From assembly GCA_903839035.1 (NCBI GenBank), contig CAIMAQ010000030.1, positions 1-50,197 on the forward strand: a stretch of DNA of 50,197 nt, in the 5' to 3' direction. Made by a program: the position numbers and the translations under genes. The number at the start of each line of letters is the position of its first letter. The stretch's first letter is position 1. The DNA is from an uncultured Opitutia bacterium. GTDB taxonomy: Bacteria; Verrucomicrobiota; Verrucomicrobiia; Opitutales; Opitutaceae. Under the pieces are notes generated by a model that was given only the letters and a program-made list of their open reading frames with translations, did not search any database and was not told the origin of the DNA. Shown piece after piece: positions 16,071-43,773 of the stretch.

Positions 16071-16163
16071 TTTTATCGCAGAAGCGCGAAAGAGCAAAAA
16101 TACAGGGAAACAGAGAGTGTGGTCCGGTTGGCGCTTCTGTTCTTTCGCGCTTCTGCGATAAAA
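16071..16163. repeat. Family A intergenic palindrome (full copy, perfect arms)
   Basis: The arms at 16071-16093 and 16141-16163 are perfect inverse copies over 23 bp; the left arm begins TTTTATCGCAGAAGCGCG. A 47-bp centre separates them. Arms are built of tandem 8-10-nt units (CGCAGAAG, CGCGAAAGA type). It sits between the LytTR regulator stop and the ABC ATPase start. Its strong hairpin with flanking A/T runs could end or stabilise the transcript. Confidence 0.92.
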
Positions 16164-29068: not shown

Positions 29069-30883
29069 ATGAAACCACTCCGCCAACTCGTTCCCGCCTG
29101 CCTGCTGCTGTCCGCCGTGTTGTTGCTCGCCGGACGCGCTTACGCCCAGCCGGCCATCCCGACCGACGCCGCTTACCGCGCCGGTTTTCAGGAGCGGTGC
29201 GCACGGACGCGCGAGGTCATGGCGCAGCAGACGTGGACCGCCGGCGTGGACAAGGACACCCGCCGCCGCATCTACCTCGGCGTATTGAAGGTCGCCACGG
29301 GCTCCGACGCCGCCACGGGCCTCCGCTACCTGGAGGACTCCGTCGCCGACCCGGCGCCGTGGAGCAGCTTCGAGGTTTATTCGTTCATGGACGCTGTACT
29401 TCGGCTCGGCGCCAAGCTGCCGCGGGCGCTGGTGGAGAAGATCCACGCCCGACTGGCGGCGAGCTTCACCCATGACTTCGGCTTCACCGACAATCACATG
29501 CTGCAGTATCGCACCGCGCGTTACCTCTTCGGCCAGACCTGGCCAAACGGCCCGGCGCTCGCGGACGGTTCGACGCCGGGGCAGTCGCAGCGCGACGCCG
29601 CCGCATGGATCGCGCGCTGGATCGAATCCACCATCGACCACGGCATGTACGAATACGACTCGCCCAACTATCACCACCTCTACCTCCTCTGCTTCGCCAG
29701 CCTGCATGAGTTCGCCCAGGACGAACTCGTCCGGAAAAAAGCCGGCATGATGATGCAGTTGCTGCTGGCCGACTGGGCGGAGTGCTACCTCGACGGCAAC
29801 TGGGTCGGCGCCCACAGCCGGGAGAAATACAACCAGGTCCTCCACACCCGCGAACACACCGGCGCCGCCACGCAGTTTGGCCGGCTGTACTTCGGCGGCG
29901 CGCCGCTGCGGTTCGACCTCGCCGAGAATTACTACATCACGCTCGCCGCCCTCCAGGAGTTCGAGTGCCTGCCGCTGATCGGGCGCATCGCCACCGACCG
30001 CTCCCGGCCCTACGTGCTGCGCGAACTGAAGGCCCCGCGGCGCGGTCCCGGCATCGTTTACGGCGAGCCGACTTGGAAATACACCTTCGTCACGCCGGAG
30101 TTCGCCGTCGGTTCCTCCTGGGGCGACCTCACCGACGTCGAGAACCACCGCTGGGACCTCACCTGGGAGTCGCCGCAGGACGGCGCCACCTGCTTCTTCA
30201 TCAACCCCTCCTATTCGGCCCGCCAGCTCAGCCGGTATTTCACGACGCCGCCCAGCCTCATCGTCGCCGACATCGTGCACCAGCGGCCCTACTACGCCGA
30301 CCCGGACAAGTGGATCGAGGGCTCGCCGTTCGAGGATGTCTTCCAGCACGAGGGCACCGTCATCGCGCTCTACGACCTTCCCGCCGACGCCGAGCGCCAG
30401 CACATCAACGGCTTCTTTCCCCACGTCATCGCCGAGCGCCGCGAAGCCAACGGGTGGATCCTCTGCCGCGCCGACGGCATTTTCTTCGCCGTCTGGACAA
30501 GCGTGCCCGGTACCTGGCACCCGGGAGGCGACCACGACCGCCTGACGATCGTGCACCCCAGGGCCGCCGTCATCCTCGAGGCCGTGGCCTCCAAGGAAGA
30601 AAATAACTTCGACGCCTTCTGCGCCCGCATGGCGCAAAACCATCCCGCCTTTGACGAGCGCACCCTGACGACGACCTACACCACCGGCCGCGGGCACAAA
30701 ATCCAGTTCACCCACCGCGGTCCGCGCCAGGTGGACGGGGTCGCCGCGAATCTCGACGAGTGGCCGCTGTTCGAGGGACCGTTCATCAACTCCCGCCGCC
30801 ACACCGGCGTGGTCACACTGTCCCACGGCGCCGAGCACGTGACGTTCGACTTCAACACCGCCACAGTGACGACCACGCCCTAG
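29069..30883 (+). CDS. Secreted polysaccharide-lyase-like protein ((alpha/alpha) toroid plus beta-sandwich)
   Basis: The 604-residue protein has a signal peptide (about residues 1-26, ending GRAYAQ) and a helical N-terminal half with a lyase-like stretch, HGMYEYDSPNYHHLYLLCF, followed near residue 240 by LDGNWVGAHSREKYN. The C-terminal half is beta-rich (about 340-600), as in heparinase II/III and alginate-lyase relatives. Substrate and family are not clear; the neighbouring OGL-like and GH106-like genes suggest a plant polysaccharide. It converges with the PL22-like gene with one base between the two stops. Confidence 0.7.
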   Translation: MKPLRQLVPACLLLSAVLLLAGRAYAQPAIPTDAAYRAGFQERCARTREVMAQQTWTAGVDKDTRRRIYLGVLKVATGSDAATGLRYLEDSVADPAPWSSFEVYSFMDAVLRLGAKLPRALVEKIHARLAASFTHDFGFTDNHMLQYRTARYLFGQTWPNGPALADGSTPGQSQRDAAAWIARWIESTIDHGMYEYDSPNYHHLYLLCFASLHEFAQDELVRKKAGMMMQLLLADWAECYLDGNWVGAHSREKYNQVLHTREHTGAATQFGRLYFGGAPLRFDLAENYYITLAALQEFECLPLIGRIATDRSRPYVLRELKAPRRGPGIVYGEPTWKYTFVTPEFAVGSSWGDLTDVENHRWDLTWESPQDGATCFFINPSYSARQLSRYFTTPPSLIVADIVHQRPYYADPDKWIEGSPFEDVFQHEGTVIALYDLPADAERQHINGFFPHVIAERREANGWILCRADGIFFAVWTSVPGTWHPGGDHDRLTIVHPRAAVILEAVASKEENNFDAFCARMAQNHPAFDERTLTTTYTTGRGHKIQFTHRGPRQVDGVAANLDEWPLFEGPFINSRRHTGVVTLSHGAEHVTFDFNTATVTTTP

Positions 30884-30884
30884 T

Positions 30885-32141
30885 TTAGCCGAAGGCGGGA
30901 ACCGAATAAATCCGCCGCACGCCGTCGAGGTCGGACGTAAACAGCACCTCGCGCTGGTCGGGCGAGAGCACCGGGTGCGGGTGGTTGTCCTGCGTGTGCC
31001 AAGAGGTGTTGCTCGCGCACAGCGGCACGACGTCCATCCGACCGTTGACCCAGTCCACGTTGAGTCGCGAGATCAGGTTGCCGCGGCGCTGCTTTTTTCC
31101 GGCTTCATCAGTGATCGCGTCGGTGATGACAAAGTCACCTTTCCGGCTCGGGAAGAAATGCCCGTAAAACGACGCCACGTCCCGCGGAAGGGAAATTTCC
31201 TGCAGCGGTGCGCCCGCGTCCACCGGCGCGCGGCCGACAAACTGCTCCGGATACTCCCCCGCGTCCCAGCGCACGCCGTGATAAATGACTGCGTTGCCGT
31301 CCTCCTGCCAGACCTCGTGCGCCACGTCGTCAAGCCCGGGCTCCGGGGTGCGGCGGAACTGGATCGGCCGCCCCGGACGGCGCACCTGCGTCCGCGGCTG
31401 GCCGTTCGCCTTCATCCAGATGCGCTCCACCCCGAGCGGCCACGTCCACTCGTGATTGTAGAGCACGAGGTCGCGGCGGTGCGGATGATACTGCACATGC
31501 GTCACCCACGCCGGTTCCTCCCAACGGAGAGTCATTTTCCCGGTGGCCACTTCCACTTCGACCAACTGCGTCGTGAGCCCAAACTTCGCGTAGTTCTCCG
31601 ACATCTCCTGGTTGCCCTTCCGTTTCTCGCCAAAGCCCAGAATCCGGCTGTCTGCCAGACTGAGCAGCACGTGCTCACCGGCCGCATCGAGATGGCAGTA
31701 ACCCACCGTGCGCGTCGGCGGGATCTCGACCAGCATGCGGCGTTTCCCGTCGCGCACGTTGACGCAGTCCAGCTGACCCCAACCGTCCTCACGACCCCAG
31801 ACGAAAAACAGGTTCCCCGAGGCCGGATGCAGACACGGGCTGGATTTGTTGAGCCCATGCGTGGCCACCGTGCCGTTGAACAGGTAATCCTCTGCCGGGT
31901 TCTCCGATCGCGACCGGGCAAAATAGGGATACGCCTGCATCGCCGGTCCCGGAAAAACCGCGAGCGGCTCCATCTGCCCGGTCGCCCGGTCAATCCGCGC
32001 CAGGCTCGCGCCCTCGGGATGCTCCGAGAAGGCGTTGGTGATCGCCGCCAGCACCGCGCCGTCGGCCGTCAGGCTGTACGACGTGAAATAGAGCAGCTGG
32101 CAGTTGGCGCTGCGCGGAGATTCCGACCGGGGTGAGTGCAT
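30885..32141 (-). CDS. Oligogalacturonate-lyase-like protein (PL22 type, beta-propeller)
   Basis: The 418-residue protein has the beta-propeller pattern of oligogalacturonate lyases. The metal-binding triplet of the family, Q-x-x-H-x-H, is present as TQDNHPHP (Q384, H387, H389), and H275 in VAHEVWQEDG fits the fourth ligand. Segments THVQYHPHRRDLVLYNHEW and ERIWMKANGQ also match. There is no signal peptide, as expected for the cytoplasmic enzyme that cleaves unsaturated digalacturonate. Its start at 32141 lies 10 bp from the CATTGCGAG-type palindrome that ends the upstream gene. Confidence 0.85.
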   Translation of the reverse strand: MHSPRSESPRSANCQLLYFTSYSLTADGAVLAAITNAFSEHPEGASLARIDRATGQMEPLAVFPGPAMQAYPYFARSRSENPAEDYLFNGTVATHGLNKSSPCLHPASGNLFFVWGREDGWGQLDCVNVRDGKRRMLVEIPPTRTVGYCHLDAAGEHVLLSLADSRILGFGEKRKGNQEMSENYAKFGLTTQLVEVEVATGKMTLRWEEPAWVTHVQYHPHRRDLVLYNHEWTWPLGVERIWMKANGQPRTQVRRPGRPIQFRRTPEPGLDDVAHEVWQEDGNAVIYHGVRWDAGEYPEQFVGRAPVDAGAPLQEISLPRDVASFYGHFFPSRKGDFVITDAITDEAGKKQRRGNLISRLNVDWVNGRMDVVPLCASNTSWHTQDNHPHPVLSPDQREVLFTSDLDGVRRIYSVPAFG

Positions 32142-32150
32142 GGATTATCT

Positions 32151-32238
32151 TGTCATTGCGAGCGTCGCATAGCGGCGCGCGGCAATCCAGCCGGATGGAT
32201 TGCTTCGTTGTTCGCTGCACTCACGCCTCGCAATGACA
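32151..32238. repeat. CATTGCGAG-type palindromic element
   Basis: The 88-bp element begins TGTCATTGCGAG (32151-32162) and ends CTCGCAATGACA (32227-32238), perfect inverse ends, with an inner hairpin GCAATCCA/TGGATTGC (32182-32189 and 32196-32203). Such CATTGCGAG palindromes are known in several bacterial phyla. Here it covers the 3' end of the GH106-like gene: the TGA stop lies at 32153-32155 inside the element. Confidence 0.9.
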
Positions 32239-34987
32239 CGCGGCCGCCCAGCTTTGTCGGATCCACCCGGCCCGTGAGGGTCACGGGGGATCCGCGCCAG
32301 TCAATTTCCAGCAAGTTCACCCCTCGCTTCAGCGCCGCCGCCACCTCCACCTCGTCCGGCGCCCAGCGCACAGATCCGCACGCGACGCCATTCACTGTCA
32401 CCGCCGCGCCGTTCGCGACAATCCCGTCGCAGCGCAGCCGGACCGATTTACCGGGGGACTCCGCCAGGTTGAACCTCTGCCAGTAACGCACCGGTCCGGA
32501 GTAAAACGGCAACCCCAGCGCGCTCCGGGTGGTCGCAGCCGTGGCCGTTGTCCGGACGACCGCCCCGCCCGCCAGCGTCCCATCGGGCAGCAACCTGAAA
32601 TCGCCCTCAAGCCGGGGAACTCCGATCATGCCCTCGGTCGAGTTTCGGAGCGTGAAATGAAATTCCAGCCGGTTGATCCCGCTCCGAACCATTCCAGCCA
32701 GCGAGTGGCTCAGTAAAAAATCCCCGGTCTTGCTCCACCGGCCCAGCGCACGCCCGTTCAGCCGGGCCGTCCATTCGCCGCGCATGTGACCCGACTCACA
32801 CACCAGTGTTAGCGCCATCCGTCCCCGCACCGAAAACCGCGTGCGGTAAATCCATTCGCGCGGCTGGGCCAAGGCCGGATTCAGCGGTACCGGCCCGAAC
32901 AGGGTCTGCCCCGTGACGGGCGACCAGCCGGGCTGCAGGTCAAAGGCCGGAAGCAGGTCCACTTTTTTTCCGTTCAACGTCCAGTTAGCGAGCAGAGCCG
33001 TGTTCACCTCCGGCCGCACGACGTTCCAGCGATCAGGCAGCACCTGCAGGGTCCGTTCCGGCTGGGGTGGCGCGGAAAACACGCGCGCATCCACCACCCG
33101 GCTCTCCCCGCCCTGCAAACTCCCGCCAGCCCGTCCGAGCGTAAAAACTGCCGGCGTCTGCCCGATGTTCGCCACGAACCAGCGCCCGTCCCGGCGCCGC
33201 GCCGCGTGGACGTCCCCGTTGCTTACGAGCGGGCCGCGCACGGACGTGAGCGCGGTGCGGTCGTTCAGCACCGGGCCTTTTCTCCCCAGCGTCGCCAACT
33301 GCCGGGACGTCTCCCGGTCAGTGAAGTCGCGAAAATAAGCGAGATGCCGGTAGCGGCAGGCACCGAACTTGAATCGTCCGCCCGCGGCTTTGACGCCGCC
33401 CAGCTCGTCATCATCAATCCAGTGCAGCCGCAAGCCACGCCGGGCCATCGCCGTGGCGAAATTCGCCGCGCGCGTGAGCAGCCGGTCGCCTTTCCGAATA
33501 TCCGAGTCCGGCAAACCGCGCAGGAAATCAATCGGCCGGATCGCGAGCATGTCCGGCGCGACGGCCGGTCCGAGCGATTCCGCCGCGTTCCGAAACTCCT
33601 CCGCCCACGCCGCCAGATCCTCCGAAGCAAACGCCGGTGGCGCGAAGTTCGGCGGCGCATCCAGCTTCCTATAGCCGTCCATCGAATAAAGGAACCCGTG
33701 CGGCACGGCGACGTTGATGCCCGCGATCGCGAGCCAATCGGCCATCCGCTTCATCGTGCGCAGGCCGAGCGTAAAATCACAGGCCCCGAACACCTCGCAC
33801 AGCGCCTGCGGCTTGCCGGCCTGCGCCGCCGCCGACACCGCCAGCCCCGCCGTCAGGTTGAGAATCGCGTTCTTCCGGTCCCCCGCCGCCGGGATGATCA
33901 CGTCGCAGCCCGGCACCTGGAACTGACGCAGGTTGGCGAGTACGCTGCCGACATGGCGCGACTCATACCACCACTCCTCCTCCGGACTGATGTGGCCCGT
34001 GAGGGAAAGCTTGTGCCGCCCGCACCACCGGCTGATCGGCGTGGTCCAGTGCTCCAAAAACGCCCGCGCCGCCACCCGCCGATACTTCCGCCGCTCCGCA
34101 TTCGCCGCCGGACCGGTGTCCCCGGCGAGGGCAAACGCGAGCGCGGGTGAGATCCGCCCGATCGCCTTCGCCACGCCCCAGCCCCACGGCAGCGGGTTGC
34201 GGAACTTCGGCTCGTCACAAAAAATCCCGGGTACCGTCCGCCCAAAGTGCTTCGCGAACCGGCTCCCGTACGCCTCGTGCGTCAGCTCGAGGAACAGCCG
34301 CGTCGCCGCCGGATTCGAGACGTCCACGTAGTTCCCGAACGGCTCCAGCAGGTCGCCGCCGGTCTTCGTCGCAATCGCGACGAGGTCCCACGTCCCGCGC
34401 GGCAGTGTCACCGCGAGCACGTTCTCCGGCAGCACGCAGATCGCGCGCGGACATTCAAACACCTCCGCCGGCCCGGTCGGGTAATACAGCTTGCTGTCCA
34501 CGACGTAGGTCTTCCGCCACGTGTCGGCGACCGAGCCCACGTCGCCGCGCAAATCAACGACCTCGCGCCGCCCGTTCCGCCGGCGCGCGTAGCAGGCCAG
34601 GATTTCCCCGCCGCCGAGCTTCCATTCGATCCGCGGCCCACCCGGGAAACGCTTCTGTTCCAATCGCAGCGATTGCTCCACAAACTCCGGCCGCCGCCGC
34701 ACCACTTCGCCGCCCGCCACCCCGCTCGGATACGGCATCTCATCGTAGAGCCACGCACGCAGCCCGAGTTTTCGGGCTTCCGCGATGCAGGCCGCCACCG
34801 CCGCAAACCACTCCGCCGAGAGATACGGCGTCGCCAGTCCCTCGCGCGCGTGGATGAAAAACCCGTCGCTGCCCGCCGCCTTCATTTCCAAGATCCTCGC
34901 GCGCAGCCGCGCCGGCTCCAGCCGGTGGTTAAGGAAAAAAAAGGGAAGCACCTCCGCGGAAGGCGCCGGACGCCGGGGCGGTTTCAT
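32153..34987 (-). CDS. GH106-like glycoside hydrolase (possible alpha-L-rhamnosidase)
   Basis: The 944-residue protein has an N-terminal (beta/alpha)8-like domain with AGSDGFFIHAREGL and LRAWLYDEMPYPSGVAGG, patterns I recognise from GH106-related hydrolases, and C-terminal beta-sandwich domains that include a galactose-binding-like module. Members of GH106 remove L-rhamnose from rhamnogalacturonan; other glycosidase activities are possible. There is no signal peptide. The last 28 or so residues (from about VSLRGVSAANNEAIHPAG) are encoded by the CATTGCGAG element, so the natural C-terminus has been replaced or extended. ATG at 34987 is chosen; a GTG at 34993 would overlap the upstream stop. 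Confidence 0.75.
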   Translation of the reverse strand: MKPPRRPAPSAEVLPFFFLNHRLEPARLRARILEMKAAGSDGFFIHAREGLATPYLSAEWFAAVAACIAEARKLGLRAWLYDEMPYPSGVAGGEVVRRRPEFVEQSLRLEQKRFPGGPRIEWKLGGGEILACYARRRNGRREVVDLRGDVGSVADTWRKTYVVDSKLYYPTGPAEVFECPRAICVLPENVLAVTLPRGTWDLVAIATKTGGDLLEPFGNYVDVSNPAATRLFLELTHEAYGSRFAKHFGRTVPGIFCDEPKFRNPLPWGWGVAKAIGRISPALAFALAGDTGPAANAERRKYRRVAARAFLEHWTTPISRWCGRHKLSLTGHISPEEEWWYESRHVGSVLANLRQFQVPGCDVIIPAAGDRKNAILNLTAGLAVSAAAQAGKPQALCEVFGACDFTLGLRTMKRMADWLAIAGINVAVPHGFLYSMDGYRKLDAPPNFAPPAFASEDLAAWAEEFRNAAESLGPAVAPDMLAIRPIDFLRGLPDSDIRKGDRLLTRAANFATAMARRGLRLHWIDDDELGGVKAAGGRFKFGACRYRHLAYFRDFTDRETSRQLATLGRKGPVLNDRTALTSVRGPLVSNGDVHAARRRDGRWFVANIGQTPAVFTLGRAGGSLQGGESRVVDARVFSAPPQPERTLQVLPDRWNVVRPEVNTALLANWTLNGKKVDLLPAFDLQPGWSPVTGQTLFGPVPLNPALAQPREWIYRTRFSVRGRMALTLVCESGHMRGEWTARLNGRALGRWSKTGDFLLSHSLAGMVRSGINRLEFHFTLRNSTEGMIGVPRLEGDFRLLPDGTLAGGAVVRTTATAATTRSALGLPFYSGPVRYWQRFNLAESPGKSVRLRCDGIVANGAAVTVNGVACGSVRWAPDEVEVAAALKRGVNLLEIDWRGSPVTLTGRVDPTKLGGRVSLRGVSAANNEAIHPAGLPRAAMRRSQ

Positions 34988-34989
34988 GC

Positions 34990-35535
34990 TCACGTCACCC
35001 AGTCTTCCGGATCACCCACGCGTCCCGCTGCCGCCGGGGGCCGCAACCGCGCCGCAATCGCCTCCTGTACCACCCCTGCGCGCCGACCGTAATAGCGGGC
35101 CATGCCGCCCTGATACACGAGGGTGAGGAGCGCCACCGCGATATAGGTGCCGTAAAAGGCCAGCCGCAGCGAGGGCTCCAACTCGGCCATGTCGATGCCG
35201 AGGTCGGTCATGGCGGAGCGCAACTCCGGGCTCACGCCGTGGTGGGTGTCGAAGAGGAGCTTGATCACGCAGTAGGCCTCGATCGCTGCCAGCACGACCC
35301 ACTGCGAGCGCACCAGCCAGCGCACGCCCGTGGCGTCGTTCGCGAGCAGCTGCTTGCGGCCCGACAATTCCATCCGCCCGCCGATGATGATGGCCGCGCC
35401 CACCGCCATACCCAGCCAGTCGCCGAGGGAGAGCACGGTTCCGATCGCGGCAATGATCACGACGCTCAGCCCGTTCGTCTTCGCGATGCGCAGCATGCGC
35501 TTCAGCTGGTCCTCGGGCGGCGGCGGCGGTTTCAT
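34990..35535 (-). CDS. Hypothetical inner-membrane protein
   Basis: The 181-residue product has four hydrophobic stretches (about residues 20-55, 70-90 and 123-145), so it spans the membrane several times. A Pro-rich N-terminus (MKPPPPPEDQLKRML) and a Gly/Arg-rich C-terminus flank them. No family is recognised. It ends 2 bp before the GH106-like start, and lies 65 bp after the UroD-like genes on the same strand, so all are likely transcribed together. Confidence 0.72.
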   Translation of the reverse strand: MKPPPPPEDQLKRMLRIAKTNGLSVVIIAAIGTVLSLGDWLGMAVGAAIIIGGRMELSGRKQLLANDATGVRWLVRSQWVVLAAIEAYCVIKLLFDTHHGVSPELRSAMTDLGIDMAELEPSLRLAFYGTYIAVALLTLVYQGGMARYYGRRAGVVQEAIAARLRPPAAAGRVGDPEDWVT

Positions 35536-42731: not shown

Positions 42732-42832
42732 GCCGCGATCCAGCGTAACCCAATAGGTTACACTCCATCACGCCACATGGCGCCCTCCGCAACAGGGCCA
42801 GTGTAACCTATTGGGTTACACCGGATCGCGGC
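42732..42832. repeat. Nested palindrome with two GTAACC inner palindromes (family F)
   Basis: Two arms of about 33 bp, from 42732 (GCCGCGATCC) and ending at 42832 (GGATCGCGGC), are inverse copies with a few mismatches. Each arm contains its own palindrome GTAACC-5nt-GGTTAC (42745-42761 and 42803-42819). It lies between the divergent fusion-enzyme and rRNA methyltransferase genes, so it can be a double operator as well as a mobile-type element. Confidence 0.88.
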
Positions 42833-43677: not shown

Positions 43678-43773
43678 TTTATCGCGGAAGCGCGGAGAAG
43701 CGGAATTAGGAAAACAATCCTTCTGCTTCGGATCGAATTCCCCCGTTCCGCTCCTCCGCGTTTCCGCGATAAA
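43678..43773. repeat. Family A intergenic palindrome (full copy) between convergent genes
   Basis: The left arm begins TTTATCGCGGAAGCGCGGA at 43678 and its inverse ends TTTCCGCGATAAA at 43773; about 29 bp pair with few mismatches. It fills the gap between two convergent genes, where the transcript from either side would form the hairpin, so it may serve as a terminator for both. Confidence 0.9.

Follow-up and report, generated by a model that had tools for sequence, protein, structure and literature searches.

How does a protein-coding gene come to end inside a dispersed repeat, and what carries such repeats from place to place? Both questions are raised by a locus in the 50,197-nucleotide stretch of DNA from an uncultured Opitutia bacterium analysed here (the window), where a glycoside-hydrolase-like gene has its 3′ end inside a palindromic element (Table 1). 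We know of no explanation for the spread of these dispersed palindromic repeats. Taking the evidence together, we judge it quite probable that the element is a non-autonomous double palindrome that replaced the end of the gene, with a small GIY-YIG nuclease as its most likely mobiliser. Such a link would identify the enzyme behind the movement of dispersed palindromes in many bacterial genomes, would give a general route to repeat-coded tails and stops at gene ends, and would make the spread of these palindromes testable at the bench.

A gene end supplied by a palindromic repeat

Table 1. The palindromic element, the gene end that it supplies and the next gene
Feature	Position in window	Strand	Basis
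Palindromic CATTGCGAG element, full (double) copy	32151..32238	.	12-nt perfect inverted arms; member of a 17-copy family
Half-element 1, GTCATTGCGAG...GCAATCCAG	32152..32188	+	half-element scan of the window
Half-element 2, GTCATTGCGAG...GCAATCCAT	32197..32237	-	half-element scan of the window
Glycoside-hydrolase-like gene, 946 aa, 3′ end inside the element	32153..34993	-	ORF; orthologs in 7 other genomes; profile match
Element-derived codons S920-Q946 (27 aa)	32156..32236	-	codon listing; missing from 7 aligned orthologs
TGA stop from the element's terminal CAATGA	32153..32155	-	sequence reading
11-nt gap from the stop to the next gene's start (14 nt in G002)	32142..32152	-	
Downstream oligogalacturonate-lyase-like gene (Pectate_lyase22)	30885..32141	-	Pfam PF14583, E 1.2e-11

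The arms of the element (32151-32162 and 32227-32238) are 100% complementary over 12 nt and 64 nt apart, which agrees with the perfect 12-bp ends described in the original prediction. The window copy consists of two inverted half-elements, each of the form GTCAT-stem-ATCCA. Full copies share a layout of GTCATTGCGAG, a variable hairpin and GCAATCCA, followed by the mirror image, with variants, and single halves are also present in the genome. Because the 3.39-Mb genome contains GTCATTGCGAG at 33 sites, against 0 occurrences of a reversed-pattern control, and because the genome holds 17 full palindromic copies, the element is a member of a repeat family and not a chance palindrome. Some of the 33 sites are single halves, and one (C40:33061) is a bare motif with the look of a chance match in coding sequence. 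The window copy has the inverted GTCATTGCGAG arms and the inner GCAATCC/GGATTGC stem of the CATTGCGAG family; it is without the outer GATT/AATC extension seen in many copies, a point that we count against our explanation. It folds better than dinucleotide shuffles both as RNA (z -3.6, with 2 of 200 shuffles as good) and as DNA (z -4.0, 1 of 200). Rfam at gathering scores gave no match in three loci (L038, L072 and L098), and the listed matches to literal element sequences in the literature were only apparently unrelated papers. Three other inverted repeats lie in the window, at 16071-16163, 42745-42819 and 43678-43773, with arms of 23, 20 and 12 nt that are unlike those of the element.

The 946-residue reading frame, which starts with GTG in the mechanical ORF list, reaches the element at V919, a GTG codon whose last two bases are the outermost TG of the 12-bp arm. 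This valine is the last invariant residue of the alignment (V918 in alignment numbering), and since all 8 aligned proteins share it, its codon is probably host sequence. From there the frame is intact across the whole hairpin, and the tail of the protein reads SLRGVSAANNEAIHPAGLPRAAMRRSQ. The tail and the stop come from the element, much as the original prediction had it: the roughly 28 codons that it assigned to the element are 27 plus the TGA, and the stop is made by the terminal CAATGA at 32155-32153. Because both outer ends of copies of this family read CAATGAC in the outward direction, an insertion in the right frame without an earlier stop ends in the element's own TGA; here the result is a tail of 27 residues, with the stop still 11 nt ahead of the start of the next gene.

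The host protein had been called GH106-like, and this label plausibly holds for the C-terminal domain only. Pfam assigned no family to the 946-aa protein at E 0.001, and at 0.1 the eight proteins matched only Glyco_hydro_2_N2 (4 of 8) and CHAD (2 of 8). A profile of the same eight proteins matches, over its positions 815-893, a C-terminal stretch of five distinct solved glycosidases, namely 5mqm, 5mwk, 6q2f and two weak matches (E 0.007-0.008); we take 5mqm and 6q2f to be GH106. An NCBIfam rhamnoside jelly-roll domain was matched below its cut-off, and the catalytic part gave no GH106 family match.

A search of 57 genomes returned near full-length matches in the genome itself and in seven others, the match in G004 being cut by a contig end. 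The seven orthologs align at 69-91% identity, are all without the element and have their own native stops, 7, 14, 7, 7, 7, 7 and 11 residues beyond V919, as compared with 27 in the window protein; CATTGCGAG is present at none of the seven loci. The tail is therefore foreign to the family, as had been supposed, and element-free relatives with the same tail, the finding that would have spoken against an acquired end, were looked for among these seven and not seen. The nearest relative, G002 (91% identity, same next gene), has at this site 39 bp that are unrelated to the element and include native codons and the stop, where the window has the element plus about 10 bp. Since the orthologs are without the element and the G002 site has the native end, the element is, judged from the alignments, the derived state and has replaced the native gene end. 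About seven native codons and the native stop were lost at insertion, a point absent from the original prediction. In G005 the glycosidase gene is missing and the lyase is kept at 93% identity (L284, G005:C90), which is uninformative for the tail; the same locus is also without the window's gene at 29069-30883.

Comparisons of 14 hand-chosen pairs of sites, out of 30 loci, gave seven element-free sites where both flanks align to within 16 bp and 0 to 40 other bases stand in the element's place. Two relatives keep shortened copies, and five sites were too diverged or repetitive to judge. Internally deleted versions of two copies from the window's genome are found in G002 (~41 bp, L262) and G005 (~38 bp, L259), and the comparisons suggest that copies decay by loss of the middle. 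Open reading frames of at least 100 aa end inside other copies of the element; some look like antisense shadows, and we claim no second donated end.

A tail more likely tolerated than selected

The open frame had been read as a repeat insertion domesticated as coding sequence. This was not borne out, as an open frame is ordinary in the family. Among 102 frames of the 17 copies, 44 are stop-free; in 28 the first stop falls in one of the last two codons, and in 30 it comes earlier. Frames open to the last two codons thus make up 72 of the 102, against 0.45 in shuffled copies, and in-frame read-through of these copies is for that reason to be expected often. Most likely the 27-residue tail is tolerated and has not been selected for. 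The insertion preserved the spacing of the genes: the stop precedes the lyase start by 11 nt, compared with 14 nt in G002.

True domestication, in which the element-coded residues were retained because they help the enzyme or couple it to the next gene, could draw on this near-constant spacing, on a frame intact through all 27 element codons and on a structure model that puts a strand at about residues 919-924, such that SLRGV may replace the family's last strand. However, the model of the host protein is poor (mean pLDDT 55), with the tail below 50 and mostly loop, the tail is found in only one genome, and the frequency of open frames in the family makes the intact frame unremarkable; we regard domestication as unlikely. 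That the gene was fused with the repeat by an assembly error is scarcely credible: the assembly does consist of 126 contigs and the element is repeated in the genome, but colinearity with G002 extends over both flanks and through the site, with the two genes adjacent in each. A role for the element in translation, by pairing of its GTGAGTGCA arm with the lyase start, was considered and dropped. The arm is complementary to the lyase start region at 11 of 12 nt (32216-32227 and 32129-32140), but the minimum-energy fold keeps the element's own hairpin, and the element with the lyase-start region shows no folding advantage over shuffles (z -0.5).

A GIY-YIG nuclease gene beside the half-elements

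In the window's own genome a gene for a 96-aa GIY-YIG protein (C94:25116-25403) lies between GTCATTGCGAG half-elements on both sides, and it is the only gene of its clade (clade A) in that genome. Its orthologs in G002 and G005 and relatives in G037 and G044 are likewise flanked by half-elements, and the G012 gene is flanked by half-elements with a CTGAG stem. The protein matches PF01541 (E 1.4e-16). Residues Y9, Y20, G22, H34, E67 and N86 are invariant and R30 nearly so in 36 aligned proteins (32 of the 80 loci described below, with L122 dropped, and four further sequences that belong to this genome or its relatives); we take these seven to be GIY-YIG signature residues with known roles. A stop lies within the nuclease frame at L122 and L139. 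The structure of the nuclease is modelled confidently (pLDDT 92.9), and its best matches are to Slx1 (6seh_A, Z 7.1) and UPF0213 (1zg2, Z 7.0), values below 8 that indicate a shared fold at most; the sequence profile matches 1zg2 and 1ywl. Slx1 acts in eukaryotic branched-DNA repair, and the titles of Slx1 structures mention branched DNA.

The association extends well beyond this lineage. When GTDB genomes were scanned with an alignment built from four such proteins, at least 575 relatives were confirmed, and the best 80, ranked by protein similarity only, were taken as clade-A loci; a single genome contributed two contigs (L124, L132). The titles of the loci name Verrucomicrobia, Bacteroidetes, Alpha-, Gamma- and Deltaproteobacteria, Omnitrophota, Parcubacteria, Uhrbacteria, Armatimonadetes, Chloroflexi, Brocadia and others. 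With no motif supplied, 9-mers within 300 bp of the 80 genes (47 kb) were compared with a larger far set (267 kb). TGTCATTCC leads the list (27 loci near, 9 far), which also includes CTGGATTCC (25 and 8), TGTCATCCC (25 and 4) and CATTGCGAG (14 and 4), with GTCATTCCC and its kin also among the top near-gene words. Under a half-element rule of GTCAT, a stem, the stem's complement and ATCC, 58 of the 80 genes have half-elements within 500 bp, 39 of them on both sides; the remaining 22 loci, with none at that distance, count against a link. The density is 5.4 per kb within 100 bp of the gene and about 0.1 per kb at 1-3 kb. Five rearranged anchors gave 0 to 9 sites versus 235 for the true rule, and random anchors in the same loci gave a mean of 6.6 and a maximum of 13 in 1000 draws, a test made on 79 loci as one of the 80 had no room. 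The element in the window is one of a superfamily of repeats that adjoin GIY-YIG nuclease genes in many bacteria, a relationship that the original prediction had missed.

The flanking copies have median spacings of 35 and 37 bp, and upstream and downstream copies match in their first three stem bases at 28 of 39 loci (shuffles: mean 9.3, maximum 18). The nearest copy is in plus orientation upstream in 31 of 48 cases and in minus orientation downstream in 36 of 49; nearest flanking pairs are +- at 19 loci, -- at 10, -+ at 6 and ++ at 4, so that an inverted-end layout is the commonest around clade-A genes and not a rule. Across 20 hand-picked genomes, ten with a GCGAG flank and ten with a CC(C/T)GCG flank, the flanking one of the two stem types tested is the commoner genome-wide in 17, with reversed-pattern controls of 0 to 4 per genome; the other type is commoner in L127, L129 and L193. 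As side observations, at three of the 80 loci (L120, L126 and L180) the GIY-YIG gene takes its stop from the terminal TGA of the half-element downstream of it, and the G012 gene (L084) also ends in its own half-element's TGA, as the window gene does. At the G044 locus (L290) the gene is surrounded by 13 half-elements, of which 10 share one orientation.

Two other clades of small GIY-YIG genes served as controls, both searches covering 194 genomes of the phylum. Counting distinct genes, 1 of 21 in the first clade and 0 of 30 in the second have half-elements nearby (Fisher 1e-8 and 3e-13), the single control-clade case, at L068, counting against the link. The first set joined the 17 best loci of one search and five of another, with one gene in both; the second comprised the 30 loci kept. 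Each clade has its own near-gene 9-mer: GCCATGAGC at 15 of 22 loci in the first, where one gene is counted twice (L085 = L196), and AGCCTTGGC at 13 of 30 in the second, both with 0 far. The first of these (L068, L076, L078, L085; L194-L210) adjoins other palindromes, with the 9-mers GCCATGAGC and CCCTTCGAC and with the peptide VECPEPVEG in four frames. The other (L224-L253) has AGCCTTGGC/GAGGGCATC motifs, and a tRNA-like TAGCTCAGT occurs near 11 of its 30 genes.

Among the relatives' genomes there are seven clade-A matches below 1e-25, in six genomes, and seven weaker GIY-YIG matches; half-elements are nearby at 6 of 6 strong genes with loci versus 0 of 6 weaker ones with loci. By a strict pattern, at least three full CATTGCGAG palindromes are present in 3 of 6 carrier genomes versus 0 of 51 others (Fisher 0.0007). 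The same pattern, which misses longer-spacer copies such as those in G002, finds 0 full palindromes in the carriers G002, G012 and G037 and one each in the non-carriers G004, G009 and G031.

Proposed mobilisation and relation to known systems

We propose that the double palindrome inserted at the 3′ end of the glycosidase gene, replacing ~30-40 bp that held the last seven codons and the native stop. The GIY-YIG nuclease, Slx1-like in its fold, would cut the hairpin or cruciform that the palindrome extrudes, and repair would place a copy of the element at another break. Cutting followed by repair copying would explain both the loss of target bases and the lack of a regular target duplication of the kind left by classical MITEs: direct repeats of at least 3 bp are missing from the edges of the window copy, and 16 of the 17 full copies carry none of 5 bp or more, C39:6646 having CCAAG. 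As the ends of the half-elements are constant and their stems free, recognition of a hairpin or cruciform together with GTCAT/ATCCA is suggested. The association of clade-A genes with these repeats is observed, and we consider it on balance likely that the clade-A nuclease, as the candidate enzyme, mobilises them.

Two alternatives bear on this step. The GIY-YIG genes may be passengers in repeat-rich intergenic islands where palindromes land, with no mobilising role, as the crowding of half-elements at some loci (13 at L290) and the 22 loci of 80 without one nearby would allow. The tight spacing and the matching stem types on the two sides of the gene argue against this, as does the restriction to one clade (58 of 80, versus 1 of 21 and 0 of 30) with distinct near-gene motifs for the other two, and we find the passenger reading rather unlikely. 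Movement by a RAYT/TnpA-REP (HUH Y1) transposase, as for REP/REPIN, would suit the element's double-hairpin layout, which we take to be REPIN-like, and the genome has two Y1_Tnp matches. However, exact CATTGCGAG is missing within about 1.5 kb of both Y1_Tnp loci (one of them cut at 0.6 kb on one side), in contrast to the copies on both sides of the single clade-A GIY-YIG gene. A Y1 transposase as partner is thus unsupported, and very unlikely. The preferred reading remains mobilisation by the GIY-YIG nuclease, and if it is correct the end of the window's gene would be a by-product of a GIY-YIG/palindrome system.

The donated gene end is itself a precedented case of a repeat becoming coding sequence. 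In the excerpts of PMC5896051, Coxiella burnetii QMITE1 and QMITE2 overlap the 3′ ends of 11 functional genes and give them stops or short C-termini, with tabulated tails of 0-16 aa for the 11 and an extension of 33 aa in EnhC of one strain; the same excerpts leave transposition and origin undetermined. As described there, QMITEs set a precedent for repeats that donate C-termini and stops: they too are short palindromes, their tails shorter than the 27 aa found here, the likeness being one of description and not of sequence. Rickettsia palindromic elements are described in excerpts of PMC2229807 as in-frame insertions within protein genes, with intergenic copies besides, and are called Rickettsia-specific. 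Again by description and not by sequence, they resemble the present element in being palindromic and read in frame, and differ in that here the end of the gene is replaced, in another lineage.

For the repeats themselves, one published pattern considered is Neisseria dRS3, ATTCCC(N8)GGGAAT, given with almost 700 copies in the excerpts of PMC3898611. Compared by this pattern, the window copy fails, having an ATTGCG stem (ATTGCGAG), whereas half-elements elsewhere fit: dRS3-pattern sites lie within 500 bp of GIY-YIG genes at 15 of the 80 loci (the Nf1 subtype at 4), with 23 such sites within 500 bp (77 kb) versus 6 farther off (267 kb). Among the matches listed in a literature search with bioRxiv and most subscription journals outside its scope, none links GIY-YIG proteins to palindromic repeats or dRS3. 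It seems to us rather likely that the small GIY-YIG clade is the autonomous partner of a GTCAT-stem-ATCCA superfamily spanning many phyla and including dRS3-fitting repeats, that further GIY-YIG clades have palindromes of their own, and that the system is a counterpart of RAYT/REP.

In PMC8266576 (see also PMC3116915), REP and REPIN sequences are short palindromes whose dispersal is attributed to an associated nuclease, RAYT (TnpA-REP), and REPs carry a GTAG or CGTC tag at one end (PMC3733652). The repeats described here are likewise palindromes associated with a nuclease, though one of the GIY-YIG and not the HUH family, and their constant ends are different; the base before GTCAT varies, with TGTCATTCC near 27 loci and CGTCATTCC near 10. 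If the proposed link holds, they would represent a second, unrelated counterpart of RAYT/REP, recognising hairpin structure together with constant ends.
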